Positions 3,528 to 63,663 of a DNA stretch of 64,000 nucleotides are shown piece by piece. The notes beneath the pieces are model-generated. The model saw only the letters and a program-made list of their open reading frames with translations, made no database searches and was not told the DNA's origin. The translations under genes were made by a program, and so were the position numbers. The stretch comes from Siphonodentalium dalli. Its lineage: Eukaryota > Mollusca > Scaphopoda > Gadilida > Siphonodentaliidae. The stretch's first letter is position 1. Each line of letters opens with the position of its first letter. The stretch lies in assembly GCA_032622095.1 (NCBI GenBank), contig CP136064.1:178328247-178392246 (forward strand), in the 5' to 3' direction.

Positions 3528-3602
3528 CGCCCGATATGGGACTTGAACCCATGACCCTCAGATGACTCTGAATTTAGCAGACTCTTAAAAGTCTGATGCT
3601 CT
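3528..3602 (-). pseudogene. tRNA-Lys split by LINE A (3' 75 nt)
   Basis: The 3' 75 nt of a tRNA-Lys gene (positions 21-73 plus the intron). The missing 20 nt were displaced to the far side of LINE A. The break is the shared insertion point, after 'gatgctct' on the plus strand. Confidence 0.93.
3585..3602. repeat. Target-site duplication of LINE A, left copy
   Basis: 18 bp, identical to 11671-11688. In tRNA terms it spans A21 to the first intron base, so the second-strand cut fell at the exon-intron border. Confidence 0.93.
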
Positions 3603-6162
3603 TTTTTTTTTTTTTATCTTTTATTATAAAAACATTATTAAGCAATGTGCTACAGTAAAAACAAAACGACAACATTTGTATACACATGAGATTACAATGA
3701 AAACAATGATAGTTCTTATATGTTATGTTTCCTAATAGAAAGCTGAATAGAAGCCTATAGTATGAAATATATATCAGGTATATGCGATAGTTGTCGTTGG
3801 TTGTTGACTTTCCTTGTTAATTTTTAATTATTTCCTCGACTAATGTTAGTTCCATGGAATTTTTAGCAGTGTATCGAAATTATAATGTTTCGGTATGATG
3901 TAGGCGAAGTAACTCTAAAATTTGTCGAGTATTTGCATTTGGCAATCTCCGTGTATCTCCGTAAGCATACGAAGATTGACGAGGTTTACGGAATTATTCG
4001 GACCAGTTATTGCACGTGTTTTTGGCTAAACATTTTCTTTCTAAAATGGACTAATATCCATATAATTAGGTTATTGAAGTGTTGTCGATGTTGACTGTTA
4101 TCTCTATGAAATCTACGGTGAGTTTCCCAAAGTAAAATAACCATATTTCTGTAGGAAAAAGCACTTTTGTTTCGCCAAATTTTTGTGTTGATGTCTTCGG
4201 CATCTTCCGTGTTCAGCCGAGCCCGATGGGGCCAACATCGGTCATCCAATGTGAAACATGTCAAAATGTGAATATGAAAATTGGTACTGATGCTGTGATA
4301 GAATTTTTACTTCAAGAGTCTTAATTTGACATGATAGTTAAACATCTCACCAGTTTTTGTGATAAAATGAATATGATTTTATGAATATATTTGTTGTTTC
4401 GCCTTGCAATTGGGTGAATTTATAAATTATAAATAATGTTTAATAATAATAATATATTAATAATAAATTGGTTTGTTATTATACCATCAACATGACTTCC
4501 CGGTGCGCCACGGTTCATCGGCATCCCGACATGAATGACCAACAACCATAAGGCCCACCAGAGGCCCGAGACAACAGTCAAAGGCCTCTAATAGGCCCGA
4601 GGGCCGCCAAACACGCATGGAGGTCTGCCAAAAAATATATACACCATGGCGCCTGACAAAAAAACGCCGTTACTTTTATTACCATTCTGGCCTGGTATGA
4701 TCACGTGGTCTGTGACTTGACCAGAAAAGGGCGGCGGCCCCAGCGAAAACAAAAATTCACTAAATCTTGCCGCACACCTCTAGTCAATTTTATCTCAAAC
4801 TTGTAAATCTTATTGTGCAGGTAAATACTCTTAATCTACTTGAGAAAGCCCTCTAAAATGGTAATAATTATTCATAGCAACATACATGCACATGATTCTG
4901 TGTACATTTATATTTTTACGACTGATTTGTGTTAACATTGTTCCATTATGATAATCATGAAATCTGAATGGCATAGAATTGTGTCTGTTTTGCATACAGA
5001 TGGATACTTATTGTCTGTTTACTTGTTTTTTCCAGGTAAAACTTATTTGTATGCTGCATCTGACGACTCGGTGACAAGTTGGAAATTTCAGAAACTGGCA
5101 CTTGTGGGATTTGGCCTTGAATAGGTATTCTTCGGCATGTCGGTTTGACTATGCTCTGTTCTAGAAAAGGGCTGCAGACCAAAACTTATCAGTTATGATG
5201 TGTCTTATCCCATGATACAGTCTGTGAACAGTGGACCAGTTTTCTTGTATGGCTTAAAACTGGGATCTAAAGATCAATAACATATTTTTAGGTGAGAAAA
5301 AGTCATGTAAAGTATCCATACTCAATGTACTCACTATCGTATATATTACATTACATCCTCCGGGAAAATCTGTGGGTTCTGTGAGGTTTCGGCAGCTTTG
5401 TATAGTAAATGTGTTGTGGCGAGCGCCAACTTATCACTGTGTATCATGCATAATGCTACACTAGTGATTGCGTACTCCATCACAGAACCCAGAGACACCC
5501 CTAAGGACAAAATATAAATTATACATGTAATACTTAGGATAACTGACAAAGTACATATGACCTTTTAAATGTCTGTGAAAGGAAAAGTATACAAACATTT
5601 AACAACAACAACAAAAAAAAACCACCTAGATGTATGCATTGCAATAGAAATATATATATACTGGGTTTTAAATTGTAGTGAGGTCCTACCGGTATAGTTT
5701 TACTGGGTTATAAATTAAGGTGGAGTCCTATAGTTTACACAAGTGTTTCTTTGCAAAATTTTAATTGTTGAAAATTTGATTTAAAAAAAAACAAGAAAAC
5801 ATTCTTTTGTCTGGGACGTCGCGTGCCTTATCAGTACACATTGGCGATGTTGATGAGGGGGCAGTGTGTAACCTTTTAAAGTTGCTAGAACCAAAAATAT
5901 TAATATATATATTAGTTCTTTGAAAAAATAGTTCATATTACATTAAGCTAATGGAAACACCCTTCTGGTATAGGTTGTTCAGGTCTGCCGCTTTCAATAA
6001 AAAAATAAAAAAGGGGGGGGGGTCTTTTTCGAATAATTTCTGGAAGGCGTTTTTCTGTGAGGATGTTTATGGGAGGATATTCATGATATCCTTAGCATTC
6101 TCTACTGTATGCTTTTATACCGTATGTTACTTTCTTCAGAAATATTTTTATAATTTTATTTC
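3603..6162 (-). other. LINE A 3' UTR
   Basis: About 2.56 kb without a credible gene on either strand, from the ORF2 stop to the poly(A) tail. Its last bases before the tail (TTTTTATAATAAAAGAT on the element strand) closely resemble those of LINE C and may be the template end recognised by the reverse transcriptase. It includes a G9 run near 6015 and a (TAA)n-like stretch near 4440. An unusually long 3' UTR is shared with LINE C once the MITE in C is removed (about 2.5 kb). Confidence 0.75.
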
Positions 6163-9100
6163 TTAACTCAAATCCAATTTTGGTTCTGATCCCTGATAAT
6201 AGAAAATAGGGTTTCCTTCTACAAAATATTTTATAAAAAGAGAATGGCTGCTATTGTTTTGTGTATAATTGAAATACATTTCTTTATGATTGATTAGCAT
6301 CTTGGTGAATAAAAAGTCAATATCAATTACTTTCCCCTCCATCAAGCAATAATTACGTCTTCGCCACACTGATAATCTATAGCAACTATATAATAAATTC
6401 AGAAAGTAATAGTTAGGCAATTTTGATTTTGTATTGTTGCCTAACAATAAATTGATTTGGAAATCTTTCTCTTTTACACAACCTGTTCCACTGTGCATTA
6501 TATCAATATATCTTCTGAACTTTGACTGAAAATTTTTCAGACAGGGACATGACAGAAATAAATGAATGATATCTTCCTGGTGACTCTTACAAATTGGACA
6601 AATATTGGTTTCACTAGCTCCAGTCAATGATTGTTTCTTCAATGTGTAAACTATATTCTGATGTACTTTGAAATCTAAATCTTTCATTTCCGAAGACTTT
6701 GGCTGAATATAAATAGATTTCCATGAAATCTCTCTCTGAATTTGATTGATTTGAAAGTACTTTTCCCAAAATGATTCACCTGTGGCCGGTTTAAAGAATT
6801 TTGATCTCATGATATCATAAGCTATCTTTGTTGATATATTTCGAATATCAAGTAAATCTCCTTTTGGATGCAGATATTTTAGAGGGACCGGTTCCCTTCC
6901 TTGACTGTTTTCAGCTACTGCTGAATGTGATATAATTTCTTTCCACTTATGTGGTATAGACTCTATGATAATCTCATATTGTTTTGTCACTTTACAGCTT
7001 TTGCATGATGACGAGCCACATACTAGATCATGAATGGAACTACTGGGCAAAAATCCAGGTACATATTCATATATAATGTCTTGAATCTTTGTAATGCCTT
7101 TCTCCACAAAATTTGTGAAACTAATGGGTTTTTGTTGAAAAGTTATTTGATTGTTATCAAAAAGACACATATATTGTATGTCGGCATCTTCATAGATGAA
7201 TTTGCCTTCTCTGCGAGACATCAAATTCCATGCATATAAAACTTCTCTATAAAATAGAGGCATGTGTTTGGTGTGCTTTTGATCAATATTTTGAAAATAT
7301 ATACCTTTACCCAGGCTGTATGATTTATACTCTCTGAAATAATATTCCATAAAAATGACCCATGGAAAATTACTGGTGTAACTTCTTTTGATCCACTTTA
7401 TTCTCATTGCATCTCGTTTTAGAATTAGGTCTGCTAAATTGAGACCTCCATCTGAAATTTTACCAATCACTGTGCTGTATTTGATAACGTTATAACTACT
7501 TCCCCATAAGAAATTTAAGCATAGAGATTTAATTTTATTGACATACAATTCTGGCATTGGTATAACATTTAAAGGATACCATAGTGTTGACAATAATAGA
7601 CTATTGATTACTAAACATTTTCCATGTAATGTTAAATTCCTTTCTTTCCAAAAATGTAAGGTGCAGGAAATTTTCTGGACTTTCTTTGACCAATTAAGTG
7701 TTTCACATTCTTTTTCATCATTTCCCAAATAAATACCCAATATTTCTATGCTTTTGTCTGTGCATTGGAGTGGTAAATTTTCTCTGGTCTCAATCTTGGA
7801 TGAACCAAGAGGAAGAATTTTAGATTTTGCTTTATTGATAATAGAACAGGAACCTTTTGAAAACATTTCAAAACATTTCATTACTTCTACTATAGAATTT
7901 TTGTCTGACACCGTGACCTTGTTATCATCTGCATGTTGAAATATTTTACATTCTTTATTAGTGAATGGTATTTTTATTCCCTTTATATTCAGGTTCTGAT
8001 TGATCATAGCTGCTAGGGGTTCAGAGCAAATGACATAAAGAAGAGGTGACAAAGGACATCCTTGTCTAACTGAAGATTCAACTGGGAAGTAGGAAGATGT
8101 GTGTCCATTAATTTTGATGCAGCTTTTACAATTTGAGTACATGAGTTTAATTCTGTTAATGAACCTTTCGCCAAAGTTGAAATTCTTCAAAACATCAAAC
8201 ATATACTGGTGTGAAATCTTATCAAAGGCTTTATACAAATCCAATTTCATGAGATAACCTGGATAGTTATGTGCTTCTGTGAAATCTACTATATCCCGAA
8301 TACTGGAAACTGTTTCGCTGAGATCGCGACCGGGGATGCTGCAAGTTTGGAAAGGAGAGATAATGTCTGGTAGAAACATTTTAACTCTATCGGCCAGAAC
8401 CTTCGCAAATAACTTTCGATCTACGCCTAGAAGTGAGATTGGCCTCCAATTTTCTAAGGATGTCTTGTCACCTTTCTTGTATAATAAAGTAATAAGACCA
8501 CGATCCATAGACCTTGGCATTATACCTTCCTGCTCTGCGGTATTGAATATGTATACAAGTGTGTGTCCTAATTGTTCCCAGAATTTCAATAGAAAATTTC
8601 TAGTTATACCATCGAGACCTGGCGATTTGGAGGGAGCCATTGATTTTAGAGCCTGATGCAATTCTTCGTGAGTAAGTGGCTGTTCAAGTGCTAAACACTG
8701 ATCCTCTGATAACTTATTCTGGATTGAATTGAGCAATGAATTTTCTGCTTCGGGTTCTATTGCGTTTTTCTGATATAATTTGGTGTAAAAATCTTCAGCC
8801 ACTTTAAGTATATCAAAAATACTCTTAACCTCATTTCCATGTGAATCATTTAATTGCCGTATAGAATTTTTTTCCTGCCTGTAGCGTTCTAATTGTAAGA
8901 AATATTTAGTACTTTTATCACTTTCCAAATGATGTTTTGATTTTGACCTGAGGATAGCTGCTTGGCATTTCTGTTCCTCAAATTTGGCCAAAGAATTCTT
9001 TAAATCTACTATTTTATATAAATTTTGGAATTGTTGAGGTCTAGATAACTCAATACATAATTGTTTTTGTAAGTTCCTCTCTTCTGCTTTTTCATTCTGA

Positions 9101-10044
9101 TTTTTACTTTTTGAATACTGTTGACTAAATTTTTTTATCTGGTATTTTAAATTATCCCACCATATCAATGGCTCTCTCTCAAATAGGGGACACTCTTCGG
9201 ACTTTGCTATGAGATTCTTGATGTCGTTAACAAAATCTTCATCACATAGCAAAGTGTCGTTCAATATCCATACGCCAGGGCCTCGGTCAATTTTTTCAAC
9301 ATTTATTTTTGCAACTAGAATAGCATGGTCGCTGAATGAGCTGTACTGTATGTATGAGTATTGGGTAAATTGTTTGATATTTTTGGAGCATAATATATAA
9401 TCAATTCTACTTTGCTGCAAGAGACCAAGTTTTAACTTATGCCACGTGTATTGTCTTTTATCATAGTTTTTGTACCGCCATATGTCTGTTAGGTCTTGTT
9501 TTGCAACAAAAATTTTAAAATCTTTTGATGAAATATCTTCTAGACCTGTTTGTCTATCAATACCTTCTAATACTGTGTTAAAATCTCCCATGATGATACT
9601 TTGTTCCATATCTTTCACATACTCGCGCAAATCTGTTAAGAAAACTTTTCTCTGTCTATGCTTGTTGGGCAAATATACATTTATTAGATCAAGAATCTGG
9701 TCTTCTATCTGTATATTTAAATGAATTAGTCTCCCTTCTGAATCAATTTGAACATTTTTGACACAATGCTTGAATTGTTTTGAGATTAAAAAGGCAACTC
9801 CATTAGACTGATTACTAAAATGACTACACTTTATTGTTCCATTCCACATGTGTTTGACTTGTTTAACAAAATCCTCATCCCAATGGGTCTCTTGCAGCGC
9901 AATAAAGTCATACCGTTTCAAATCACATAATTCAAAAACATTTTTAACCTTTTTAAAGCTACGTAGGCCATTCACATTGAAGGTAGCAAACAATACCATT
10001 ATAATGGTTAAAAAGTTATATGTTATTGTTACAACAAAAGCCAT
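6163..10044 (-). CDS. LINE A ORF2: APE endonuclease / reverse transcriptase
   Basis: About 1293 residues from the ATG at 10044; a longer open frame starts with TTG at 10053. The product nicks the target and copies its own RNA into it. Residues 16-250 are an apurinic-type endonuclease with the expected motifs: FNVNG (N23), LQET (E52), GDFN (154-156), RIDYI (213-217), SDH (238-240). The reverse transcriptase lies at about 470-770: GLITLLYKKGDK, RPISLLGVDRKL, LDLYKAFDKISH (D602), QGCPLSPLLY (661-670) and the catalytic HADD (704-707), where His replaces the usual aromatic residue. A C-terminal C-x2-C-x8-H-x4-C finger lies near 1150-1167. ORF1 ends in TAACAATGG, so ORF2 begins 2 nt after the ORF1 stop, which suggests reinitiation. 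No stop or frameshift is visible. Confidence 0.95.
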   Translation of the reverse strand: MAFVVTITYNFLTIIMVLFATFNVNGLRSFKKVKNVFELCDLKRYDFIALQETHWDEDFVKQVKHMWNGTIKCSHFSNQSNGVAFLISKQFKHCVKNVQIDSEGRLIHLNIQIEDQILDLINVYLPNKHRQRKVFLTDLREYVKDMEQSIIMGDFNTVLEGIDRQTGLEDISSKDFKIFVAKQDLTDIWRYKNYDKRQYTWHKLKLGLLQQSRIDYILCSKNIKQFTQYSYIQYSSFSDHAILVAKINVEKIDRGPGVWILNDTLLCDEDFVNDIKNLIAKSEECPLFEREPLIWWDNLKYQIKKFSQQYSKSKNQNEKAEERNLQKQLCIELSRPQQFQNLYKIVDLKNSLAKFEEQKCQAAILRSKSKHHLESDKSTKYFLQLERYRQEKNSIRQLNDSHGNEVKSIFDILKVAEDFYTKLYQKNAIEPEAENSLLNSIQNKLSEDQCLALEQPLTHEELHQALKSMAPSKSPGLDGITRNFLLKFWEQLGHTLVYIFNTAEQEGIMPRSMDRGLITLLYKKGDKTSLENWRPISLLGVDRKLFAKVLADRVKMFLPDIISPFQTCSIPGRDLSETVSSIRDIVDFTEAHNYPGYLMKLDLYKAFDKISHQYMFDVLKNFNFGERFINRIKLMYSNCKSCIKINGHTSSYFPVESSVRQGCPLSPLLYVICSEPLAAMINQNLNIKGIKIPFTNKECKIFQHADDNKVTVSDKNSIVEVMKCFEMFSKGSCSIINKAKSKILPLGSSKIETRENLPLQCTDKSIEILGIYLGNDEKECETLNWSKKVQKISCTLHFWKERNLTLHGKCLVINSLLLSTLWYPLNVIPMPELYVNKIKSLCLNFLWGSSYNVIKYSTVIGKISDGGLNLADLILKRDAMRIKWIKRSYTSNFPWVIFMEYYFREYKSYSLGKGIYFQNIDQKHTKHMPLFYREVLYAWNLMSRREGKFIYEDADIQYMCLFDNNQITFQQKPISFTNFVEKGITKIQDIIYEYVPGFLPSSSIHDLVCGSSSCKSCKVTKQYEIIIESIPHKWKEIISHSAVAENSQGREPVPLKYLHPKGDLLDIRNISTKIAYDIMRSKFFKPATGESFWEKYFQINQIQREISWKSIYIQPKSSEMKDLDFKVHQNIVYTLKKQSLTGASETNICPICKSHQEDIIHLFLSCPCLKNFQSKFRRYIDIMHSGTGCVKEKDFQINLLLGNNTKSKLPNYYFLNLLYSCYRLSVWRRRNYCLMEGKVIDIDFLFTKMLINHKEMYFNYTQNNSSHSLFIKYFVEGNPIFYYQGSEPKLDLS

Positions 10045-10046
10045 TG

Positions 10047-11462
10047 TTAACAAGATTGGTTTTGGGTATTAGATGAATTCACTCCCTGATGTTTCATCCG
10101 TTCATCGTGCGCCTTCTTAGCTGCCTCCACATTAGGCGCTGGGTGAAATCGCTTATGTTTTTTGTACTTCTGTGATTTCCCGATATTTGATGATTGAGTT
10201 TGCCACCCCTCGTCATCAAAACCGTTACTTTCCTTCGTGTCATTAAATTCATCAGTTTCATCAATTCTGGTACCGACTCCTGACATTAGATCTTCATTCT
10301 CTGTTACATTAGTTTTTACACTTTCTGTCATCTCACCTTTCTTCTCTTCTGATATTTTTACCTCCTTCTTTGCATTTCCTTCTATGTCTTGACTCTCCTT
10401 TTCTATGTTTTCCTCGGTTTGTTCTCCTATGATCTCCATAGACTCCATTCCTTCTTTGCATTCACATTCACCTGACAACCCACAGCTGAAACATAAAACT
10501 GGTGGCTCAGACTGATCATTGCCAGGTGTGTCCTCCTTTATTTGAACATTTTCGAACTGTTTTTCCTCTGCAATTTTAACAGTGTCTTCTTGCGGTACTT
10601 CACTGTGATTTTCCTTATCATTTTCCTTCGCACTTTTCTTTTCTTCTTCATACTTGCGAATTAACTTTTTCTCGAGCTCTGATTTTCTTCTTAATTCTTC
10701 TATGTCTGTTTCTATTTCATCTTCTTCTCCACATGTGCAGTCTGATGTCATTTCTTTGCATCCAGGGCAACAAACTCTGTCTATTTTCCTATGTCCACTC
10801 CTTGAACAGTTATAACACACAAGATTTGGGCAAGATTTATATTCGTGTTGGTCCGAGTAACACAAACTGCAGACTTTCCTCTGACCGTTGTGAATTAAGC
10901 GATATGACTTGGATCCATCGACTGTATTGAAGCGAACCAAATTTGGTAATGACCTAATTTCCGGAGGAAATGTGACTTTTGCGTACCTCGTTCCATCTGC
11001 AATATTTGTATTTCTGTAATACCGTCTCCTTAAATCTTCAATTTCGGTGATTCCAAAAGATTTAAGTTTCTCTTTTATTTCATCATCTGTGATGTATGCT
11101 GGTAAATGCATAAAAGAAACAGTCATTCTGTTGTCAGAAATCAACTTTGGCCTGAATTGGGGCCTTGTAACTGCTAACTTTTCAACTAATAGTTCTGCAT
11201 GCTCTCTTTTTTCCATTGTTAACTCGTAACTGTTATTTCCAACCGGTACGCAAGCAACCACTGAGTCGAAGCCCACCATTTTTTCCACATTTTCAATAGT
11301 TTTAGCTGCAGATACTGTTCTGATATCCCCCACTGTTAGCCTCAGTGTTGACTCCTTCTGAAAATGTGAACGTTCACATTTAAATTCTTCATTTTTAAGG
11401 GCATTAGCATATGATGACTGTCCCTGTCCCTGGTCCACATCTCCCATTTTCGAAGTAGCCAT
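10047..11462 (-). CDS. LINE A ORF1: RRM-like and zinc-knuckle RNA-binding protein
   Basis: 471 residues from the ATG at 11462; the frame is open to a TTG at 11474. As an ORF1 protein it should bind element RNA in the ribonucleoprotein. Two RRM-like segments are suggested at about 40-100 and 112-195 (VSFMHLPAYITDDEI...SFG). Then come knuckles at C198-x2-C201-x4-H206-x4-C211 and C216-x2-C219-x4-H224-x6-C231, plus a Cys cluster at 232-244. The C-terminal half is Glu/Lys-rich, low-complexity and probably disordered, ending in a basic stretch (KSQKYKKHKRFHP). LINE C and element D carry related proteins. The fold assignment is by pattern only. Confidence 0.9.
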   Translation of the reverse strand: MATSKMGDVDQGQGQSSYANALKNEEFKCERSHFQKESTLRLTVGDIRTVSAAKTIENVEKMVGFDSVVACVPVGNNSYELTMEKREHAELLVEKLAVTRPQFRPKLISDNRMTVSFMHLPAYITDDEIKEKLKSFGITEIEDLRRRYYRNTNIADGTRYAKVTFPPEIRSLPNLVRFNTVDGSKSYRLIHNGQRKVCSLCYSDQHEYKSCPNLVCYNCSRSGHRKIDRVCCPGCKEMTSDCTCGEEDEIETDIEELRRKSELEKKLIRKYEEEKKSAKENDKENHSEVPQEDTVKIAEEKQFENVQIKEDTPGNDQSEPPVLCFSCGLSGECECKEGMESMEIIGEQTEENIEKESQDIEGNAKKEVKISEEKKGEMTESVKTNVTENEDLMSGVGTRIDETDEFNDTKESNGFDDEGWQTQSSNIGKSQKYKKHKRFHPAPNVEAAKKAHDERMKHQGVNSSNTQNQSC

Positions 11463-11670
11463 CTCCCCCACCAAAAGAAATAAAGAAACAACTCACTATT
11501 GGTGAGTATTTACCTCTGTATTTCTGATCACATGTTTGCCTTTAAAGTCTAAATGATTTTCTTTATAAATCAGTTGTGAAATGTCGAGTTATTGCCGATA
11601 ATTCTTCAAAATATCTTCGTCGAAAATCGGGTTTGTTTATCCCGCCATTGACAACCGGAAGTGTCTCCTG
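11463..11670 (-). other. LINE A 5' UTR
   Basis: About 208 bp between the element start (CAGGAGACACTTCCGG on its strand, right beside the target duplication) and ORF1. It presumably holds an internal promoter; I recognise no specific motif. Confidence 0.6.
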
Positions 11671-11847
11671 TTAAAAGTCTGATGCTCTACCATTTGGGAA
11701 CCAGGTGGTCGGGTGTTATGATTTTGTGATGGAAACCGAGATGGTGCATCGTTTTCGAGTATAAAAACTAACGTCGCCCGATATGGGACTTGAACCCATG
11801 ACCCTCAGATGACTCTGAATTTAGCAGACTCTTAAAAGTCTGATGCT
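11671..11847 (-). repeat. Remnant tRNA unit between LINE A and LINE B
   Basis: Opens with the right copy of the LINE A target duplication (11671-11688) plus 'acc', then jumps to 'atttgggaacc' in the spacer, so most of one unit was deleted. The join is at similar short words (ctacc / tatcc). It then runs into the 3' 73 nt of a tRNA-Lys gene (11775-11847), which LINE B interrupts. Confidence 0.9.
11775..11847 (-). pseudogene. tRNA-Lys split by LINE B (3' 73 nt)
   Basis: The 3' part of a tRNA-Lys gene ending at 'gatgct', two bases short of the break used by LINE A, LINE C and D. Confidence 0.9.
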
Positions 11848-11909
11848 GAATCTGAATGGTTTCCGCTGCAGATCCCAATTCTGGTAATTTCGCAGCGGTC
11901 GAGAGAGTC
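11848..11909 (-). other. LINE B 3' UTR: hairpin and ATTCAG repeats
   Basis: On the element strand, CCGCTGC and GCAGCGG pair across a loop of about 22 nt, then come AAACC and tandem ATTCAG words running into the target. In the CR1/L2 group a 3' stem-loop plus short repeats is what the reverse transcriptase recognises; the role here is inferred. Confidence 0.7.
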
Positions 11910-14900
11910 TCAGATATTTTCCTTCAGCGCACTCTTGAAGGAATCCACAGGCTGTTGTTGTAGTATTAAGGATTCCTCCAGCTGATTCCAGTCGCATATA
12001 GTTCTAACAAATATGGAATTAGCGAACTGAGCTGACACGTATGGTATTGCCTCGTAGCACTGACTGTTGTTTCTTATTAGGTGTCGAGGAATTTGGCTGG
12101 TGACGTAGCCTGTCAGAATTTTGCTTTGCGATCTAAGACGCCTTGTTTCGGGTGTAAAGTATTGATTAGGGGGTATAGCCGGGACCAATCCGCCCACCAC
12201 CTTACTCATGAATCCCAGTCGGTTTATTTTTCGCCGTTTCTTCAGTGTTGGTAGATCTAGCTCGTGGAGGATCTTGGTCATGTATCCGTCTTCTTTGCTT
12301 TTGTAGTCTCTTTTGATGAACCGGGCTGCTCTACGCTGGATTCTTTCCAGCTTGTCGATGTGGTTTTGTTGGTAGGGGTCCCAGATGGTGTCTGCGTAGT
12401 CCATGATGGATCTGACCAGCGATATGTAGCCCATTTTTCTGCAGTCCTCTGAGCAGTGTCGTATGTTTCTTCGCAGGAAGCCAAGAGTGCATGCTGCTTT
12501 CCTGGAAACATTTCTAATGTGGGCGTCCCATGTCATGGTGTTGCTTATAGTTAGGCCAAGGTACGGGTGTTCTTGTACTTCCTTAAGTATATCTCCTTTC
12601 AGTCTGTAGTAATAGTCGGTGATTTTCCGGGATGACATTATGAAGCATTTTTTGGTGTTAAATTTCATTCCCCATGTGTCGGCCCATTCATCCAGGATGG
12701 AGAGATCTTCCTGCATGGCTAGGTGGTCCTCAAAGTTGTCGATTTCTCGATACAGGAGACAGTCGTCAGCAAATAGACGCACCTTCGATTGGATCTTGTT
12801 TGGGAGGTCGTTAATGTGACATAGAAATAATAATGGACCGAGTACAGTCCCCTGTGGTACCCCGGAGTCTACTGTTTCCTCTCTTGATGTTTTCCCATCT
12901 ACTACTACGCGCATTTTTCTGTTTACGAGGAATGATGTCATCCATCTCAGTAGTGGTCCTCTGATCCCGTAGTTTTCCAATTTTTGTAGTAATCTCCGGT
13001 GAGGCACGGTGTCAAATGCCTTTGAGAAATCGAGGATGGCAATGTCCACTTGTCGCCGATTGTCAAATGATTGGAGTAGGTCATGTGTGGTGACGGCCAG
13101 TTGTGTCTCGCATGAAAAACCGCGCCGAAAACCATGGTTCAACGATGTGAGGATCTCGTGCTGCTCTAGATGGTTGAGGACATGTCTACATACGATATGT
13201 TCGAGTATTTTACATGGAACAGATGTTAAAGATACCGGTCTGTAGTTCTCGGCAGCATGCTTGTCCCCTTTCTTGTATATGGCCGATATATTTGCACTCT
13301 TCCAGTCTGATGGTAGTGTCCCCGTTTTTATAGACTGCTTGAAGATCCTGGTGAGTGGTGGTGCTATATCCCTTGCACATTCTTTAAGCACCATGTTTGG
13401 GATGTTGTCCGGTCCTGGTGCTTTGTGAACATTCTGTTTTCGCAGCAACTTTTCGACTCCTTCGACTGCTATTTCTAGGTCTGGTATCGAAGGTAGGTGG
13501 AGGTCGTCCAGTTTCGGCGGCTGTCGTTTAGGGTCATCGATGGTGAATACGGATTTGAATTGTTTCAGCAATATTTCTGCTTTTTCCTGTGGGTCTGGTG
13601 TGATGTTCCCATCCATCTTAAGGGGCGCCACTCCGATTGAGTCATTTCTCTTTGATTTGATGTAGCTCCAGAAGGGTTTAGAATTATTTTTGTCAAAGCC
13701 TTCTTTGATGTTGTTGTTTATATATGTCCACTCTGATTTCCTTATGGATCTTTGACACTCCTTCTGGTAATGGCGATAGTTTTTCCAGTCGTTTTTCTTT
13801 CTCGCTTGTTTGTATAGCCTCTTCTTCTTCCTCAGCATCTTATGGATTGATCTATTGATCCATGGTGGGTTGTGATTTGTCCTGACCACTGACGATGGTA
13901 TATGCTTCTCCATGGATTTGGTTACAGCATCTCTGAATTTTGTCCACATGTTATCAGTGTCTTGTTCACCTGCTATCACGCTGCGCAACATGTCAATATC
14001 GGCTTGTCTGATGTCTGCTTGAATTAGGTCCCATTCTGCCTTTTTGAAGTTGAAGCGTCGACGTTTACATTTCGGAGCGTAGTGTGGTTTCGTCTCCATG
14101 TCTGTAATAATGATGTCATGGTCTGATAGTCCTGGGATGTTTGTGGTGTTTTTTATCAATGAGGCGTTTGATGTAAATACTAGATCAAGTAAATTGTCTC
14201 CTCTAGTGGGTTTCCTTTGTACTTGCGTCAGTCGGTCGGTGATGTCTACTAGCTTCTGGTGTATGGCTTTATCTGGCGCATCCTTGTCGATGGTAAGGGA
14301 ATCCCAATTTATCCCAGGGCAGTTGAAGTCACCCGTCAGAAAGATGTTTTGTTGGCTTGTTTGCCGTATTTTCTGTAGAGAGTCGTCAAGTAGCTTCAGG
14401 TCACTCTCATTTCTATGTGGCATATAGAAAGAACCAATCAGTAAATCTTTGCTGTTGATTAGCTTCACCTTCACCCATTCCAGCTCGCATTCTGTAACGT
14501 ACTCAGCCCTTTCTTCTGAGATCAGCTCTTTGTTGACTAATATGAAGACACCCCCGCCTAGTGAGTCTCTATCATTTCGGTATACCTCATATCCAGGTGG
14601 AAACACTTCACAGGATTTTGTTGAGTTCTGGGTTGGGTTTTGTCCAGGTTTTATCCCCCTTAACCAAGATTCACAACCGCATATGACATCAGGTTTGGTG
14701 TAATTTAGAAGGGCGTGGAATTCTGATGTTTTCCCATTGATACTTTGGCAGTTGATAGTCATTACTCTTAGGTTTTCTTTCGGTTTCGGGTTGCAGATGT
14801 TTGATGACATGGATCCGTGGTCCGAGGCATGTATGTTTGGGCTTGGTATGTCCCGCGGACTGCTTGCCTTAAGAGGGCTGAATGTGGTGCTGTTTAGCGT

Positions 14901-15404
14901 CGTATTCAGTGTTATGTTGGATTGGTCCAATGGGTCATAATAGTTTGAGCAGTTGACCTCATAACTGTGGAAGGTGAATGATGATACGTTTATGTTGTCG
15001 CATCGACAGCACAGCCATGACACGTTTTTTAGGTTGCTGATTTCTCGGGTACACATTTCAAGGCAGGACTTATGGTACCATATACTACATTTGTCGCAGC
15101 ATGCTCCTCCATTTGTCCAGTTGGTGGCGTCATCACAGAAACCGCATGGGAAGATATTTGCATCCTTCTTGGTGGGACCAGGATTTTTCTCGATATCTCC
15201 TGCTAGCACAAGCAGTAAGAGGATGATGGGTGTGTTACTGCCAGATTTTATGGGCAACGTTATGGGCGAGCTCCCAGAAGACCTCAGTCTTTGCTGTAAT
15301 AGTGACGCTACTTGTTGATAGTTGGTTGGGATCTCAGTGTTCTTCCTTATCAAATAGTGAGCGATGGCGAATGGAATCAACAGACATAGTACAAACTTCC
15401 ACAT
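11910..15404 (-). CDS. LINE B ORF2: 2A-like leader, PHD finger, APE endonuclease, reverse transcriptase
   Basis: 1164 residues from the ATG at 15404. Residues 1-18 are hydrophobic and signal-like (WKFVLCLLIPFAIAHYL). A second hydrophobic run leads into a 2A-like motif, LAGDIEKNPGP (about 67-77); ribosomal skipping would separate it at G76/P77. Next is a Cys/His-rich PHD-type finger (C87, C90, C102-106, H111, C114, then WLCCRC). The APE endonuclease follows (INCQS, CESW, GDFNCPGINWD, DNLLDLVFT, SDHDII), then the reverse transcriptase (NYRPVSLTSV, LDFSKAFDTVPH, GVPQGTVLGPLLF, LFADDCLLY) and a thumb/C-terminal region (RIQRRAARFI, TICDWNQL). No stop interrupts it. 2A-like peptides are reported in several CR1-related LINEs of marine invertebrates. 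Confidence 0.93.
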   Translation of the reverse strand: MWKFVLCLLIPFAIAHYLIRKNTEIPTNYQQVASLLQQRLRSSGSSPITLPIKSGSNTPIILLLLVLAGDIEKNPGPTKKDANIFPCGFCDDATNWTNGGACCDKCSIWYHKSCLEMCTREISNLKNVSWLCCRCDNINVSSFTFHSYEVNCSNYYDPLDQSNITLNTTLNSTTFSPLKASSPRDIPSPNIHASDHGSMSSNICNPKPKENLRVMTINCQSINGKTSEFHALLNYTKPDVICGCESWLRGIKPGQNPTQNSTKSCEVFPPGYEVYRNDRDSLGGGVFILVNKELISEERAEYVTECELEWVKVKLINSKDLLIGSFYMPHRNESDLKLLDDSLQKIRQTSQQNIFLTGDFNCPGINWDSLTIDKDAPDKAIHQKLVDITDRLTQVQRKPTRGDNLLDLVFTSNASLIKNTTNIPGLSDHDIIITDMETKPHYAPKCKRRRFNFKKAEWDLIQADIRQADIDMLRSVIAGEQDTDNMWTKFRDAVTKSMEKHIPSSVVRTNHNPPWINRSIHKMLRKKKRLYKQARKKNDWKNYRHYQKECQRSIRKSEWTYINNNIKEGFDKNNSKPFWSYIKSKRNDSIGVAPLKMDGNITPDPQEKAEILLKQFKSVFTIDDPKRQPPKLDDLHLPSIPDLEIAVEGVEKLLRKQNVHKAPGPDNIPNMVLKECARDIAPPLTRIFKQSIKTGTLPSDWKSANISAIYKKGDKHAAENYRPVSLTSVPCKILEHIVCRHVLNHLEQHEILTSLNHGFRRGFSCETQLAVTTHDLLQSFDNRRQVDIAILDFSKAFDTVPHRRLLQKLENYGIRGPLLRWMTSFLVNRKMRVVVDGKTSREETVDSGVPQGTVLGPLLFLCHINDLPNKIQSKVRLFADDCLLYREIDNFEDHLAMQEDLSILDEWADTWGMKFNTKKCFIMSSRKITDYYYRLKGDILKEVQEHPYLGLTISNTMTWDAHIRNVSRKAACTLGFLRRNIRHCSEDCRKMGYISLVRSIMDYADTIWDPYQQNHIDKLERIQRRAARFIKRDYKSKEDGYMTKILHELDLPTLKKRRKINRLGFMSKVVGGLVPAIPPNQYFTPETRRLRSQSKILTGYVTSQIPRHLIRNNSQCYEAIPYVSAQFANSIFVRTICDWNQLEESLILQQQPVDSFKSALKENI

Positions 15405-15477
15405 CACAACAAGTATAGCGTGGAAAAACCCACAGCTGACTTGCGTGATAATGTGAAAGTGTATACCCTGGTGTGTT

Positions 15478-15817
15478 TTACTCCTCTTCCCAGCAGTCCC
15501 TCTTCATTTGTTCACCAATCTTTTTGAGCCAAGCCTTTGCGAGAGTCGGTGATGGATGCAGTCCGTCTGTGTATACGTTGAAATTATACACGTGTCTTGG
15601 TAACTTCGAATTTTTCTTTGATGTTACCGGATTTCTGGAGATATCACTAGAGAATTGTGGTGAGTGAGAATTTAGTTCCCCATTTAGCCTTCTAATCCCG
15701 CTATTAAGTTGGTAGACTTGTTCCAGTAGTAGCTTGTCACTATCGGCAAATATTGATGGGTCTTGGTGTTTTCTGCTTCGATTAAACTCTACTATTGAAT
15801 AGATTGGAGTCTCTAGT
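15478..15817 (-). CDS. LINE B ORF1, C-terminal fragment (SGNH-like end)
   Basis: An open frame of about 112 residues with no start, because the element is truncated here. It ends with TAA at 15480-15478. The end reads VYTDGLHPSPTLAKAWLKKI; a D-G-x-H-P motif near the C-terminus is the catalytic Asp/His signature of SGNH (GDSL) esterases, a domain common in ORF1 of CR1/L2-type LINEs. The call rests on this motif and position alone. Only the last third or so of a normal ORF1 would be present. Confidence 0.65.
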
Positions 15818-23699: not shown

Positions 23700-24312
23700 T
23701 TTTTTTATCTTTTATTTATAAAAATCATAATGTAATATGACATATACAAAATATTATAACATTGCACAAACATATAAAAATAATGATAATAATAACAGTA
23801 TTCACTACAATAAATGGAATTTGTCATCACTTGTTGTTATATAACATGTGTTCTTACAATACAAAATTGTATGCTGTATTTATGTAGCGAACTCTATTCT
23901 TATTCCTAAAAGGAAGTTGAACTGGATTTTTAGCATTATAAACTGGATCTCCTGTTATTCAATTGGTAAATAGCTGATATGATTCAAATTTATTTGTGAT
24001 AATATTCAACTCGATTGTACTATGACGTACAGTTTTGTCGGCAAATTGTCGTACAGTAATCGATAGCGTGGAAGTGATGATAGAGTTACTTCCCTTCCGT
24101 TGCACATGGAATTTTGAAAAAGAAAAGTTTTTTCTGCTGGAGATTATTGTAAAATTCCAAATAACCATGGGTCTATATGCTCTTTAATCTAATTCGAAAG
24201 GTATGTAAGAGTGTTGTCTCGGCGAGGATAGGGTTCCATAGTGTTCAGGGCGGTTATGAAAGGCGTCAACGTTTGAGCAAAATGTACGTGTCCATTTTTC
24301 GTGTAATCCCAG

Positions 24313-25570
24313 TTCAGCCACAGGTTTTGGTAGTTTTATAAAAAAAAAAAGGACTATATGTAAGAATAAAGTCCAGGTATATAAGTAATTATGTAGCAGA
24401 AATCACGAAATTTTAAAACATGTTTTTTATTTACCCACACTTCCGAAATGTCTGTACTATACACGCTTATATATACTTAATGACATCAAGATATATAATA
24501 CTACCTTCTTTTGCCACAATTCGTACCTTGAAATGTTTATTTTGAAGTAATAAATTTGTTAAAATATTACGTCTGTTTCAGGTAGCACCATTACTTTAGT
24601 TGTACTCGATTACAGAACTAGCTACTCCCGGTTGTGTTCGATTGCCGAGCCCGTGATGTTCCAGCTGCCCAGACTAAGCCGGCACTCTTTGTCAATAGCA
24701 AGAACTTGAAATGTTATATTGTCTATTAAAAGTTTTAAAAATATTTTGATGTAAAAAATGATAAAAATAAAGTTGCCATATTTATGTGGGTTTTATGTTG
24801 TATATATATCAATTCTCCTTTCTATATTTCTTTGTTACCAATAGTGTTTAATTGAATGGGTCACGGTGCGACTAAATATAGAAGTTACAAGGAAAACCAG
24901 TTCTATTTATATTCACTAGGCTTGATACATGAATGGAGTTTGAGCACATTTGAATGATTTTGAGTGATAGAATACCCCGTGCGTTAATTTCCCCTTGACC
25001 CGATTCCACGTTGCATGGTCGAATCACGAATGTCGATAAAAGTTGAAACATAAGACTTACAAATTATCTGTTTAGTTTTTTTCATTTGTGATTGGCATAA
25101 CTTACCACAAACCAAAATTCATCATTATTGGAATTATATTAACGACAATAAACGAAATTGAAACTCCCAACTACACATTTTACTGGACTCGACCTCGGAC
25201 TCGGACTACAACTATTAGTGTGTCCCAATTGAACCGGAACTAAGTTCTGGTGTCACGCGGGTGCTCAACCGACAGAAACATTCCCGTAAACGGTTGCAAA
25301 AAACCTTTGTTTCTTTCTAATAGTTGGAAGAATCTATAGTAAGACGAACACTGTAAGTAAAGCTAGTGTTAATTATATGTGTATGAACGCGCGACGGTTA
25401 ATTAACGTCGATAGGGTAAATAGTATTACAACGAAAGAAATTCCAATTTCCTCACTGGATATTTAATCTACTTCCGGTTTTCTAGTTAGACACCTGGTCA
25501 TTTATTTACTAGAATGGTCATCTCATTCTCATGAAAAAGGTCTATAAAACTACCAAAACCTGTGGTTCAG
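24313..25570. mobile_element. MITE-like DNA element inside the LINE C 3' UTR
   Basis: Perfect 23-bp terminal inverted repeats beginning CCACAGGTTTTGGTAG at 24318-24340 and 25543-25565. They are flanked by direct TTCAG words (24313-24317, 25566-25570) that look like a 5-bp target duplication. The 1248-bp body has no convincing ORF, so the element is non-autonomous. Removing it brings the LINE C 3' UTR to about 2.5 kb, matching LINE A. The superfamily is not assignable from these ends. Confidence 0.75.
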
Positions 25571-25667
25571 CGTGACAACAATCGTGACCTCATATCTATA
25601 TTGAGATTGAAAATTACCAATCTAACGTTATCCATCAAATATATTAACTGGTTCCCCCAGTTGTATG

Positions 25668-25985
25668 TTCAGCTATCATCAGCCATTGACTCGGCACCCT
25701 AGATCATGCCACGAATCCCCACTCTGGCTACTGCATAGTGGAGATTCGTGGCATGATCCATCGGCACCCCAGGCCTCTGTCAGTGTCAAATCTGATTACG
25801 ACAATGGCGACTCCAGTAGTATTTTCAGCAATCATCAGCCATTGACTAGGCACTCTAGATCATGCCATGAACCTCCACTCTGGCTAACGCCCGTGTATAG
25901 TAGAGATTCATGGCATGATCCATCGGCACCCCAGACCTCTGTCAGTGTAAATTCTGTTTACGACAATGGTGATTCCTCCTCTTAA
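25668..25985 (-). repeat. Tandem hairpin pair in the LINE C 3' UTR
   Basis: Two direct copies (25668-25823 and 25824 to about 25980, period 156). Each holds a long hairpin with 22-bp arms: 25702-25723 with 25737-25758, and 25858-25879 with 25899-25920. The copies differ at five arm positions. One pair is a compensatory C-G to T-A change and the other three all keep pairing if the RNA is read from the minus strand, as G·U wobble. The structure, not the exact sequence, has therefore been kept on the LINE's coding strand. The role is unknown; an RT- or ORF1-binding element is one possibility. Confidence 0.75.
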
Positions 25986-27029
25986 AATTCTGTTCTGAAA
26001 ATAATCGTTTCGTGTAAATGTGCAATTTATAATTTAATAATACAGTTATGTACACATAATTTTTCAACATTATTGTGGGCACATGATGATGCCGCACATC
26101 CGAGCAGCTTCACCATAATATTTATTTCTTTTTTTCCTTTAAAATGATCATTCACTAATTTGTTATGCCTTAATATGAGAAGCGTAGCATATCGCTTAAC
26201 ATTAAATGTTGTTCCTGAATAACTTTCTTCCCGTGGCAAATTTTCGACTCGTAAATAAACCATTTATTGATTCTGAACTCCTTGTGACCTACTTGCGATT
26301 ACCAGTTTGTCACGTGATCTTCGAAATTAATCTAATTTGAAATATACATATTCTTTCAGATACCCATTGGAAGTTAACAGAAATTGGTACGGTTATGGCT
26401 CCCTGCTAACATGGGTGCAGATAATCGGATGAGAATAAGGTAATTATTACTAGTTAGAAGCATGTCTAGTAAATTATAAGATATTTCAGCTATGAAACAA
26501 ACTCTAATAGAGCACTACTAGTACTGGTGGCCACATGAAATCAGTCAAAATGACAGGCTATATTTTCTGAATGGTTACTTAATTAATCACAAAGGGTGAC
26601 TGTTAGTGTTTCCTGTAGCATGGCATACGCTCCACAATAAACATCAACCCTTTATAATAAGGCCAGGAGTGGTATGAATAATGGGGTGGGTGATGTGGTT
26701 CGGGGGGGGTGTAATTGGGATGCATTGAAATATAAAAACAATTTAAAAAACTGGAAAGTTTGGTCATGATAATCCTTTTACACTCTTTCTCTTTGATAGC
26801 TCGCTAGCATTGTAATAACATTTCTGCCGGGATGTTTACGAGACCGGGCGAGGGGGGGGGGTGCCAAAAATTAGAATTTTTCCTTTATATATATATAATT
26901 TTTCTCATTTTAGTTCTTTTCTACTTTGTAAATTATTCGTGATCCACTTTTTTTTGTTTTTTGGAGGATTTGGGTGGAGTATACAAAAAAAAAAAAAAAA
27001 AAAAAAAAAAAATTAAAATTTTTTTCAAT

Positions 27030-27070
<41 letters not shown>

Positions 27071-27446
27071 TAAACTTTTGACTTTTATTGATTGCTGCTT
27101 AATGCCATCTCAGTTATTACATTGTTGATATGAATTTTTAACCAATTTTCTTATTTATATGTTTTGTTATTCTATTTCAGCACAGATATGCATGGGCATC
27201 TCTACCAGAATCCAGAACTGAAAAAAGAATGGATACTGCTGGATGAAGTTGTTTTGTATGACAGATCTTGCTAATTACATTTGACATTGGTTGCTCAACA
27301 TTAAAAGGAAACAGCTTCATATACATTGGATTGCCGTTGGAAAATCATATGCATGTCAGGTCATGCATGCAAGCTAATTCTTTCTACGGTTTCTTAACTT
27401 TAAAGGAGGATATCTTTATATGGATCAGAAGTTGTGTCTTCTGTTT
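25986..27446 (-). other. LINE C 3' UTR, proximal part
   Basis: No credible gene on either strand between the hairpin pair and the ORF2 stop. It contains G-runs near 26702 and 26850 and the homopolymer pair. The distal part (23700-24312) is also non-coding and ends with the LINE A-like terminus. Confidence 0.65.
26975..27064. repeat. Poly(A) / poly(T) inverted homopolymers
   Basis: About 27 A, a short AT-rich spacer, then about 29 T, inside the LINE C 3' UTR. Such tracts are slippage-prone, and the exact length in the assembly should not be trusted. Confidence 0.8.
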
Positions 27447-31316: not shown

Positions 31317-31325
31317 TATTAAAAA

Positions 31326-33455: not shown

Positions 33456-33829
33456 TCCAACCGCGCATGTGACATCTTCATAAGTCAAGGCACCCAGGAG
33501 CCATGGAGGTTTTAATATATGTGGCAAAAATCTTTCGGTTGATGGGCGTGGCTTCTAAAGGTCATAATCTCGAAGAGTTCATCGTATACACCGTACAGTT
33601 CTAGTAAATTGAGACTCATCGTGGTCGCAAAAAAGATGAAATCTATCAAATCGAGAATTCCCTGATAGTTGGTGAACTCGATTTCACGCGAAATGGCGGA
33701 TAAATGCCTGTTTGAACGCAATTGCAAATATCTGGTCGCAAAAAGGGTAATCTTCATTTTGACGCGGGGCGGAGCTAATTTAAATATTTTTTTGTATTTC
33801 CGACGAAACGAAATAGCTAGTTGTGTTGC
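33456..33829. other. Unexplained 374-bp stretch between LINE C and the array
   Basis: Neither LINE-like nor tRNA unit. It joins the array at 'ttgctttctgcac', in the spacer just upstream of the tRNA, not at the LINE target. A minus-strand frame of 121 codons (33512-33877) runs from the unit into this stretch, but I recognise no domain. It could be original DNA at an array edge, a 5' addition of LINE C, or a join made by rearrangement. Confidence 0.5.
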
Positions 33830-52338: not shown

Positions 52339-52869
52339 TTTTTTTTTTTTTTTTAAATATAAAATCGACTCAGTTCTGGTTTTCGGGCTCACGGGACCAC
52401 AAACCAGAAACTATTTTCTGGTGTAAGACGCATTAATTGTGTGGTCTGCGAGTATGCGAATAACCGGTTCATCACTGTCGAAATGGGGATAACTTTATTG
52501 AAAAGAAAATACAATACAAAATTATTACAAAAAAACAAAACGAGAACTAGTAAGAGAGCAAGATATTGAGAAAAAGAACATCATATAAGAAGAGAAAAAG
52601 AAGTCCGAAAAAATTAGAAGCATGCAGCAAAGGGCAGAAAGATAAAGATAATCATCAGTATCAGAGCTAAAGTGAAGAAGGAAGCAGCAAGAAGGTAAGT
52701 ACAATTAAAGGTTTGTAAACTCAATAATAAATTACCATAGTCTTTCTATGAAAAGCTAAATTCTATGTATTTACAAATTATCGTGCTCGTAACACGAATT
52801 GGAAACAAAAATAAACTTGTATTAAATTGATCTGAACACGCCAATTAACTGATCAAAGATACGAAAATT

Positions 52870-52990
52870 TTGCGAAATAAGTCTAATAATAATTAAAAAA
52901 AAAAAAAAAAAAAAATAAATTAAAATAAATAAATAAATAAATAAATAAAAAAAAAAATTAAAAAATATATGATTCAAAATGAAAACATTT
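52870..52990. repeat. (TAAA)n / poly(A) low-complexity tract in D
   Basis: An A-rich run with (AAAT)n repeats in the D 3' UTR. The second D copy has a longer (AAAT)n at 63625-63680, so this tract is the most variable part between copies. Confidence 0.8.
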
Positions 52991-53097
52991 TTTTTTTATC
53001 TAGGCAATATGTGTTTATATCCGAAATCTAGCTCAAAATTCAATAGACATAGCAACGGTCGTTATACTCAATGTTCAGGATGTGGAACTTTAAAAAC

Positions 53098-54159
53098 TCA
53101 TCCAACCTGCATGTCGTCTGGATCGATCATCTGAAGTCCCGGTTGCCGCTCATACCAATACATAAACGAACAAGTAAGTTTTGACAACCTCTCTCCCATA
53201 ACTGCACGCTTCAGGGTGTGCACATATTTCCTATATAAACCTCCCGGGTCATAATCAGCATACTTTTCATCCTGTTTCAACAAGATCGACATCGGCGTCC
53301 GGTCTACACCGTCAAATTTCTCAGCTCGATAACATTTGGGAATTGTTTCAACATGCATTCTGTCGACCTTGACATCAGATGGTGTCAGATAGTACTTTTC
53401 GTGCGCCGAGTCATCTTTCTTTAAAGAATTATTGGTTCTGGGTTTCTCAATTGTACTGTCTTGTTTGGATTTCACATCTCGAACACTTTCCTTCTCTATC
53501 GGCTTTGCAATTTCAATAGCATCGGTCTGAGTAGATGCTTCGTGTACGTCCTGTGCGGATGAAATACCATCTGTTTGCGTATAAATATCCACTGGTCTCA
53601 CTGGAATTTTGTTTTGAGTACATGAACTTATTTTGTGGTTTGGAGACAGACATCTCACACAAACATGCGGGCGGCCAAGCATGGTGATTATAGCATGACC
53701 ATTTTCGAAGTTAATCACATAAGGCACCTCATTGAAATCAGCGACAACAATGATTAGTTCGCGAACACCATCTCGGATAAACACACCGTCACACTCTATA
53801 CCCATATAGCGATGATTGACAAGTCTCCCGAAAGAAGAACAAAGCGACGCTACTTCCTCAGGAGACACACGATATGGTAAACCATGCACACGCACTGATG
53901 CGATCACTGAATTGGGCTCAAATAAACACAGCGTTGATCCGTCTGCACTAAATGGCGATAAACCAACAGCATTAATCATCGCGTCACGGTCTCTAAACAC
54001 AACTGTCCAGTCGTTCTGTTGGCCACTGCACACCGCTTCGACATCGCTCAGATTAACACAATGGCCGACCAGCTTTAACACGGTACGATGATCACGTCCA
54101 CCAGGACCGCTGACAATCAGCCTCGCACTTCTCTCAATAATTTCATCCACGCAGCCCAT
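53098..54159 (-). CDS. Element D ORF1-type zinc-knuckle protein
   Basis: 353 residues from the ATG at 54159, uninterrupted. An RRM-like region (SVIASVRVHGLPYRVSPEEVAS..SFG, about 85-165) is followed by a CCHC knuckle, CVRCLSPNHKISSC (C-x2-C-x4-H-x4-C). The order and spacing match LINE A ORF1 (HLPAYITDDEI..SFG..DGTR..VC..C....H....C), so the two are related but diverged. The second half is a charged linker and a conserved-looking C-terminus (MSILLKQDEKYADYDPGGLYRKYVHTLKR). It probably binds RNA; an open frame without ORF2 implies that this protein, or the RNA alone, is what keeps D moving. Confidence 0.85.
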   Translation of the reverse strand: MGCVDEIIERSARLIVSGPGGRDHRTVLKLVGHCVNLSDVEAVCSGQQNDWTVVFRDRDAMINAVGLSPFSADGSTLCLFEPNSVIASVRVHGLPYRVSPEEVASLCSSFGRLVNHRYMGIECDGVFIRDGVRELIIVVADFNEVPYVINFENGHAIITMLGRPHVCVRCLSPNHKISSCTQNKIPVRPVDIYTQTDGISSAQDVHEASTQTDAIEIAKPIEKESVRDVKSKQDSTIEKPRTNNSLKKDDSAHEKYYLTPSDVKVDRMHVETIPKCYRAEKFDGVDRTPMSILLKQDEKYADYDPGGLYRKYVHTLKRAVMGERLSKLTCSFMYWYERQPGLQMIDPDDMQVG

Positions 54160-54596
54160 TTCGGATCAAATAATATTTCACGTACCTTGAATATAAACTA
54201 TCCAACAATCATACGTCGAATTTAGGGCCAGATGACCCTCACAAATACAATAAATCACCGGATTTTCATAGACACAAATCAAACACGACCTCCGTCATCA
54301 ACAGCTATACCGCTCTTCCTGAGCTAACCGGGCTTGTTGCTAGTGGGGCCACCATTTGCTTTCTGCACAAAACGGGTGATATCTATATGAGAAGTTTGTG
54401 GCGCCAAATTTTAAGGCCAGAATATTATGCGCACAGCATATAAGTGGAATAATTTGGGGCTCGATTTTATTGTGTATTGCGCAAACACGCTATTTGATAT
54501 TTGTAAACTATCCAATTGGGAACCAAGTAGTCGGGTATTATGATTTTGTGATGGAAACTGAGATGGTGCATCGTTTTCGAGTATAAAAACTAACGT

Positions 54597-62634: not shown

Positions 62635-62729
62635 CGCCCAATATGGGACTTGAACCCATGACCCTCAGATGACTCTGAATTTAGCAGACTCTTAAAAGTC
62701 TGATGCTCTACCGACTGAGCTAACCGGGC
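62635..62729 (-). tRNA. tRNA-Lys(UUU), C68U variant
   Basis: The change at 62640 gives C68U, a G·U pair in the acceptor stem; the fold is kept. Confidence 0.92.
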
Positions 62730-62992
62730 TTGTTGCTAGTGGGGCCACCATTTGCTTTCTGCACAAAACGGGTGATATCTATTTGAGAAGTTTGTGGCGC
62801 CAAATTTTAAGGCCAGAATATTATGCGCACAGCATATAAGTGGAATAATTTGGGGCTCGATTTTATTGTGTATTGCGCAAACACACTATTTGATGTTTGT
62901 AAACTATCCAATTGGGAACCAGGTAGTCGGGTATTATGATTTTGTGATGGAATCCGAGATGGTGCATCGTTTTCGAGTATAAAAACTAACGT

Positions 62993-63067
62993 CGCCCGAT
63001 ATGGAACTTGAACCCATGACCCTCAGATGACTCTGAATTTAGCAGACTCTTAAAAGTCTGATGCTCT
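62993..63067 (-). pseudogene. tRNA-Lys split by D copy 2 (3' 75 nt), C61U
   Basis: The same break and the same private C61U change (63005) as 52264-52338. Confidence 0.92.

Positions 63068-63632: not shown

Positions 63633-63663
<31 letters not shown>

Follow-up and report, generated by a model that had tools for sequence, protein, structure and literature searches.

This report concerns a window of 64,000 nucleotides (nt) from the scaphopod Siphonodentalium dalli (contig CP136064.1, positions 178,328,247 to 178,392,246; "the window" means this whole stretch), in which a tandem array of transfer RNA (tRNA) genes for lysine is interrupted by several retroelements. Two of these, a long interspersed nuclear element (LINE) called A and a shorter element called D, target tRNA genes in general, inserting into many isotypes at one structural bond. 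The best explanation overall, to which we assign a probability of roughly 85%, is that A is an autonomous LINE of the L1 group, and that its machinery nicks tRNA genes of many isotypes at about nt 21/22 and primes there.

The evidence comes mainly from genome searches, which covered the 2.23-Gb assembly (9 contigs) with the 3' end of A, the 3' end of D and the pattern GATGCTCTTTTTT as queries. The search with A scored 40 of its 274 candidates and gave 41 match rows. Loci were cut out for 30 of these rows; 26 loci (the window copy included) extend to the 3' end, while four (L137-L140) are internal only. Eleven rows have no locus, nine being short internal pieces and two (C1, ~42.738 Mb) resembling one broken copy. 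At every one of the 26 loci a tRNA 3' half, read by eye, lies directly beside the T-run that marks the poly(A) end of the element, and an anticodon arm and the T-arm motif are present in all of them. The targets belong to about 13 isotypes (Lys, Asp, Leu, Tyr, Ile, Glu, Gly, Val, Arg, His, Asn, Ser and Thr) with about 18 anticodons: Lys TTT, Asp GTC, Leu AAG/CAG/CAA/TAG, Tyr GTA, Ile TAT, Glu TTC/CTC, Gly TCC, Val AAC, Arg ACG/TCT, His GTG, Asn GTT, Ser GCT and Thr AGT. The junction is found at the same structural place, about nt 21/22 at the 3' edge of the A box, in 25 of the 26 loci. Beyond the T-run the tRNA sequence resumes at nt 22 in 17 loci and at nt 23 in eight (Leu, Ser and Arg-ACG); in these eight, an A at nt 22 would be absorbed into the run. 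Seven of the loci (L130-L136) form a subfamily that is ~78% identical in the query part.

With D as query there were 40 rows; 13 of them match at 94-100% identity, and the other 27 at 77-81% across ~160-190 bp. Two of the rows belong to the window. Flanks were read for 19 further rows, made up of 10 strong ones (of 11 beyond the window) and nine of the 27 weak ones, and 19 rows were left unread. Among the 19 flanks read, 17 are tRNA genes interrupted at the same bond, seven of the nine weak rows included, and the targets carry nine anticodons (Leu AAG/CAA/TAG, Arg TCG/ACG, Glu CTC/TTC, Thr CGT and Asn GTT). The orientation is identical in all 43 junctions of A and D. Six junction-side 12-mers are common to both elements, five from tRNA and one a mis-cut spacer string, and several copies of A and D occur in the same isotypes and in the same chromosomal clusters (C1 42.3-42.8 and 135.4-135.6 Mb, C3 125.9-126.1 Mb, C6 4.3-4.6 Mb, C8 150.9-151.3 Mb and C9 62.9-63.1 Mb). 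Counted by distinct anticodons, the loci suggest about 18 independent events for A and 10 for D, Lys included. The weaker D matches suggest that a wider set of elements carrying the last ~180 nt of D resides in tRNA genes, and an autonomous partner of D may perhaps be found within this set.

It is important to point out that a number of observations weigh against this interpretation. One copy of A (L122, in tRNA-His) is displaced by about 12 nt upstream, starting at about nt 10, and the tRNA-Glu gene at L147 is disrupted in the T-arm. Two of the 19 D flanks (L159 and L160, matches of 77-78%) are not tRNA, and the 3' end of D has no significant likeness to that of A (1143 of 2000 shuffles reach the score). 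As 40 of the 274 candidates for A were scored, copies outside tRNA genes may be missed. Outside the window the 3' flanks were the part read, and target duplications and nt 1-21 are seen in the window copies alone. Some loci are likely array duplicates (L141/L143, L144/L145 and perhaps L113/L118/L126), so the independent events are fewer than the loci. Finally, some of the anticodon assignments were made by eye. The counts as a whole rest on raw flanks read by eye; because of introns or the cut rule, the automatic anticodon calls went astray at L111, L116, L122 and L123, and the automatic 12-mer cut was wrong for L128, L130, L147, L149 and L152, doubtful for L134, and let the non-tRNA L160 pass.

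In the window, the array and the elements A, C and D, all with poly(A) ends at the tRNA bond, are arranged as follows, with open reading frames (ORFs) in amino acids (aa).

1..3602, minus strand: first block of a 358-bp tandem array of intron-bearing tRNA-Lys(TTT) genes
15818-23699, 33826-38976, 41774-46248, 48914-49218, 52068-52338, 54319-58771 and 61440-63067: further array blocks
3585..3602, plus strand: target site of A, left copy of the 18-bp duplication TTAAAAGTCTGATGCTCT
3603..11670, minus strand: LINE A, ~8.07 kb, its poly(A) end adjoining a tRNA 3' half
6163..10068, minus strand: A ORF2, stop-to-stop 1301 aa, with apurinic (APE)-type endonuclease, reverse transcriptase (RT) and zf-RVT (under its cut-off)
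10047..11492, minus strand: A ORF1, stop-to-stop 481 aa, zinc-knuckle-like (weak, E 0.039)
11671..11688, plus strand: right copy of the target-site duplication; from there to 11847, a partial, rearranged array unit
23700..33825, minus strand: LINE C, 10.1 kb, at the same bond as A
27447..31325, minus strand: C ORF2, stop-to-stop 1292 aa
31326..33000, minus strand: C ORF1, three overlapping frames (pieces of 262, 237 and 161 aa)
52339..54318, minus strand: D copy 1, 1980 bp, with poly(A) and an ORF1-like protein only
53098..54165, minus strand: D ORF, 355 aa, weakly resembling the RRM/zinc-knuckle part of A and C ORF1
63068..64000, minus strand: D copy 2, truncated by the window end

The tRNA-Lys(TTT) gene has 95 nt on the minus strand, with an intron of ~22 nt (for example at 306-400), and 73 intact copies are present in the window. 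The T-runs at 3603, 23700, 52339 and 63068 each start immediately 3' of GATGCTCT (within ...TTAAAAGTCTGATGCTCT) in such a gene, which reproduces at all four positions the common octamer that the initial annotation had reported for A, C and D. The bond follows nt 20 of the tRNA, and because T stands opposite A21 on the strand read, one T is ambiguous and the cut can be placed at 20/21 or 21/22; the proposed cut in the D arm near 20/21 thus stands within this one T. One exact 30-mer search, in which the end of A was taken as 11673, finds five of 78 tRNA 3' halves interrupted, namely those at the four T-runs and that at a further LINE, B, at 11848. The 40 kb of flank beside the window hold 47 more intact sites, and a pattern search there found no additional interrupted tRNA-Lys site.

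These interruptions amount to four insertion events in the window (A, B, C and D), B lying within 2 nt of the shared bond, since A and C are diverged, B is distant from both, and the two D copies are most simply one duplicated insertion. The chance of hitting a single bond and strand within the 358-bp unit is ~2e-6 for A, C and D, and ~1.4e-8 with B within 2 nt included, both figures referring to a uniform null and having been calculated after the pattern had been spotted. The endonuclease of L1 prefers TTTT^AA. Each 358-bp unit contains two perfect sites of this kind, both unused, while the bond in use scores 3/6, and a generic L1 endonuclease preference is thereby ruled out. The 3' junctions are precise and the 5' junctions variable, with a target loss, counted by eye, of ~42 bp where the 5' end of C joins the array and of ~5 bp for D.

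The coding capacity of A and C is that of L1-group LINEs, as in the Tx1 clade, to which they may belong. Pfam Exo_endo_phos and RVT_1 are found in both, within uninterrupted ORFs, and the best PDB matches of A are to human L1 ORF2p (LINE-1 ORF2p, E ~1e-79). A and C are placed together with full support in a quick tree of 72 rows and a careful tree of 32 rows, both built from database relatives. The named relatives of A and B are mostly molluscan proteins (Mytilus, Patella, Nucella, Batillaria and Pinctada), with some from echinoderms and a few labelled as bacterial metagenome-assembled genomes. At the level of the ORF2 protein, A and C share 44% identity (1295 aligned columns), which makes their insertions independent, as had been proposed; a single insertion spread by array conversion is ruled out for this pair. 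The two share the 3' terminus ATAAAAGAT(A)n (3603-3640 in A and 23700-23740 in C; 3 of 2000 shuffles reach the score), which contains a poly(A) signal, and blastn found no other likeness between their 3' untranslated regions. With regard to Tx1-type target-specific insertion, all 26 readable loci of A are in tRNA genes, and one insertion of C was seen. Being a sister of A at the same bond, C probably belongs to the same system, the copy in the window being the one observed.

The initial annotation had interpreted the window as the work of a tRNA-Lys-specific LINE lineage, the endonuclease of which would read tRNA-Lys around GATGCTCT^ACC. Every junction in the window is indeed in tRNA-Lys, and the sisters A and C share the bond. 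However, the check it had proposed, comparison of the 3' ends with the assembly, was run for A and D and overturns this reading: the copies are spread across many tRNA isotypes, with 25 of the 26 A loci and 17 D loci outside the window in isotypes other than Lys, and tRNA-Lys accounting for one of the 26. Nor are the flanks mostly unrelated sequence, since those read for A and D are other tRNA genes. The pattern GATGCTCTTTTTT occurs 189 times in the genome against 49 times for the reversed control, and among the 100 of these sites that were listed, none of the 96 outside the window has a tRNA-Lys context. Specificity for tRNA-Lys is ruled out for A and D by the genome-wide flanks and is, as an account of the whole, very improbable, although C alone, known from one insertion, could be Lys-specific.

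At 43 of the 96 sites (L014-L016, L018, L020-L023 and others) the pattern belongs to a dispersed repeat unrelated to tRNA, GTGACGTGGCAAGATGCTC followed by a T-run, which explains much of the excess over the control. In viral and prokaryote collections no tRNA-Lys junction was found, the nine short-pattern matches there being without tRNA context. ARAGORN found no tRNA in L010 and L011.

We now consider how the bond may be selected. The precise 3' junctions, the poly(T) starts, the one orientation and the 18-bp target-site duplication of A are observed directly, as are the many isotypes hit by A and D, and they fit the target-primed reverse transcription that had been suggested. In the proposed mechanism, the endonuclease of A itself would nick the antisense strand at about nt 21/22 (A21), at the 3' edge of the A box, and the 3' OH at the nick would prime reverse transcription of the poly(A) RNA of A. 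The tRNA gene would be recognised via the conserved A box and D-loop (G18 G19 ... A21), which are common to tRNA isotypes, or via bound factors of RNA polymerase III (Pol III). As the bases 3' of the bond vary by isotype, they are unlikely to be the signal, and it is probably one of these two that is recognised. The insertion parts the A box from the B box and should silence that tRNA copy, a loss that would be tolerable because the array is redundant.

A narrower form of this explanation, which we hold as a serious contender at somewhat under even odds, is recruitment by TFIIIC, TFIIIB or Pol III, the bond being set by the geometry of the complex or by open DNA rather than by base reading. 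From one isotype to another the sequence 3' of the bond bears no relation, and the bond adjoins the A box, both of which agree with recruitment, but the A box would be conserved enough for direct reading as well. Dictyostelid tRNA-gene elements insert at set distances (PMC5006619), and the targeting of TRE5-A is mediated by host proteins (PMC3706591). Against this, 25 of 26 A copies are placed to the single nucleotide, a precision that exceeds the approximate distances described for the TRE elements. The data fit direct reading of the A box and recruitment by Pol III alike. If the targeting by A is as we describe it, it would offer a natural test of whether an apurinic-type endonuclease recognises the A box itself or is guided by Pol III factors, and the many isotypes would act as a built-in alignment, in that whatever all targets share is what is recognised.

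A further LINE in the array, B, has no poly(A).

11848..15817, minus strand: LINE B, CR1-like, 3.97 kb, without poly(A), ending in ATTCAGATTC
11910..15503, minus strand: B ORF, 1197 aa, with a 2A-like GDIEKNPGP, a PHD finger (weak, E 0.027), endonuclease and RT

B is located between A and the next array block, with tRNA-strand flanks GGTAGAG and AGCATC, within 2 nt of the bond used by A. Both flanks are in register, and any duplication is at most the 2-bp AG. Its identity to A and C is 23-25% over 295-375 residues of the RT region. B is a putative member of the CR1 group, the features seen being the endonuclease and RT, the weak PHD finger, the 2A-like motif and the tail ATTCAGATTC without poly(A). 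We know of no site-specific member among the CR1-group LINEs with a PHD finger, and B differs from that group in sitting at the tRNA bond. In CR1-group LINEs of this kind the PHD domain stands ahead of endonuclease and RT, as the weak PHD match does in B (PMC4120745), and the length of B is close to the bivalve CR1 mean of 3791 bp (PMC10294476).

Two accounts of the position of B have to be weighed. If the bond were a hot spot, fragile or accessible to any LINE, the landing of the unrelated B within 2 nt would follow, and all four LINE events of the window are indeed here while the inserts E1, E2/E3 and F (described below) are in spacer. We nevertheless consider a hot spot improbable: B is known from one copy, the LINE families compared are those of the window, and the finding of all 26 readable A copies in tRNA genes favours targeting by A over passive accessibility. 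The other account, that B is also a tRNA-targeting LINE of the CR1 group which reached the same bond independently, is possible but rather doubtful. It agrees with the two flanks in register and the duplication of at most 2 bp, and has a precedent in Keno and Utopia, which reached U2 independently (PMC4640811); yet a single copy is known, and landing within 2 nt on that strand by chance has a probability of 5/716 under a uniform null. Combining these elements into a class-wide tRNA-gene LINE system (A box/Pol III) with a fixed bond, an ORF1-only partner and a convergent CR1-group LINE gives a picture that we regard as tentative, short of an even chance.

The two D copies, D1 and D2, show 97.9% identity across 1008 bp, of which 60 bp are flank, and carry the same flank variant ATATGGAACTTG; the 5' end of D2, in the adjoining stretch (L042), joins the array at the same point as that of D1. 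They are thus most simply one insertion duplicated with its flank, as the initial annotation had it for the second copy. A D 5'-end piece in the stretch right of the window is probably an array copy. The single D ORF above 150 aa has no significant Pfam match, a protein search with it gave no match, its resemblance to ORF1 is weak (hhalign E 4.8e-4, probability 32%) and its predicted fold is unusable (mean pLDDT 36). D is probably non-autonomous, with an ORF1-like protein only, and would be moved in trans by A or a relative of A. Half-LINEs (HAL1-like) keep ORF1, lack RT, have a poly(A) tail and are mobilised by another element; D, with its poly(A) and an ORF of weak resemblance to ORF1, may be of this kind.

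The site-specific LINEs Tx1L, Keno, Mutsu and Dewa all belong to the Tx1 clade and resemble A in being L1-group elements with an apurinic-type endonuclease and multicopy targets. A, a possible member of that clade, differs from them in being inside many tRNA isotypes at one structural bond. LINEs described as specific for tRNA genes are NeSL-1_TV (tRNA-Pro), LIN15_SM (tRNA-Arg) and LIN25_SM (tRNA-Glu), and for Utopia precise 3' and variable 5' junctions are reported, as for the window elements (PMC4640811). The former three are NeSL-clade relatives with a restriction-like endonuclease and are reported for one isotype each, whereas A has an APE-type endonuclease and many isotypes. Dictyostelid TRE5/TRE3 and related non-LTR (long terminal repeat) elements use tRNA genes in general, by convergence, but they insert up- or downstream at approximate distances, while the junctions of A and D are inside the gene at about nt 21/22 (PMC5006619). 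Some families of Dada DNA transposons (including Dada-tK) use more than one tRNA isotype (PMC8869645); they differ from A in having a DDE transposase and 6-7 bp duplications and in not being retrotransposons (PMC3706591).

In the literature cited, tRNA-internal LINEs are single-isotype and general users of tRNA genes insert beside the gene; in the open-licence literature searched we recognised no description of a LINE that occupies many tRNA isotypes at a single bond. Through such a system, jumping genes may be able to exploit tRNA genes in general as landing sites; if our reading is correct, it would be a candidate for inserting into target sites that are numerous and redundant.

The remaining inserts of the window are in the array spacer.

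38977-41773: E1, 2.8 kb, with near-perfect terminal inverted repeats of ~40 bp
46249-48913 and 58772-61439: E2 and E3, copies 99.6% identical
49213-52069: F, 2.9 kb, with short inverted ends (AGACCAGCTGAA) and a TTAA-like duplication, read by eye

The repeat end of E1 resembles the tRNA target (AGTCAGATGCTCGTACC vs AGTCTGATGCTCTACC), with 9 of 2000 shuffles scoring as high. E2 and E3, the ends of which look Helitron-like, may belong to a more extensive duplication in which D1 and D2 are included. Beside the window, the stretch to the right contains a 12.6-kb insert, and an 8.5-kb palindromic insert with an apparent CTCGAT duplication is found in array spacer (L040/L041, joined coordinates 2712-11228), with a 603-aa zinc-finger-like ORF on both arms.

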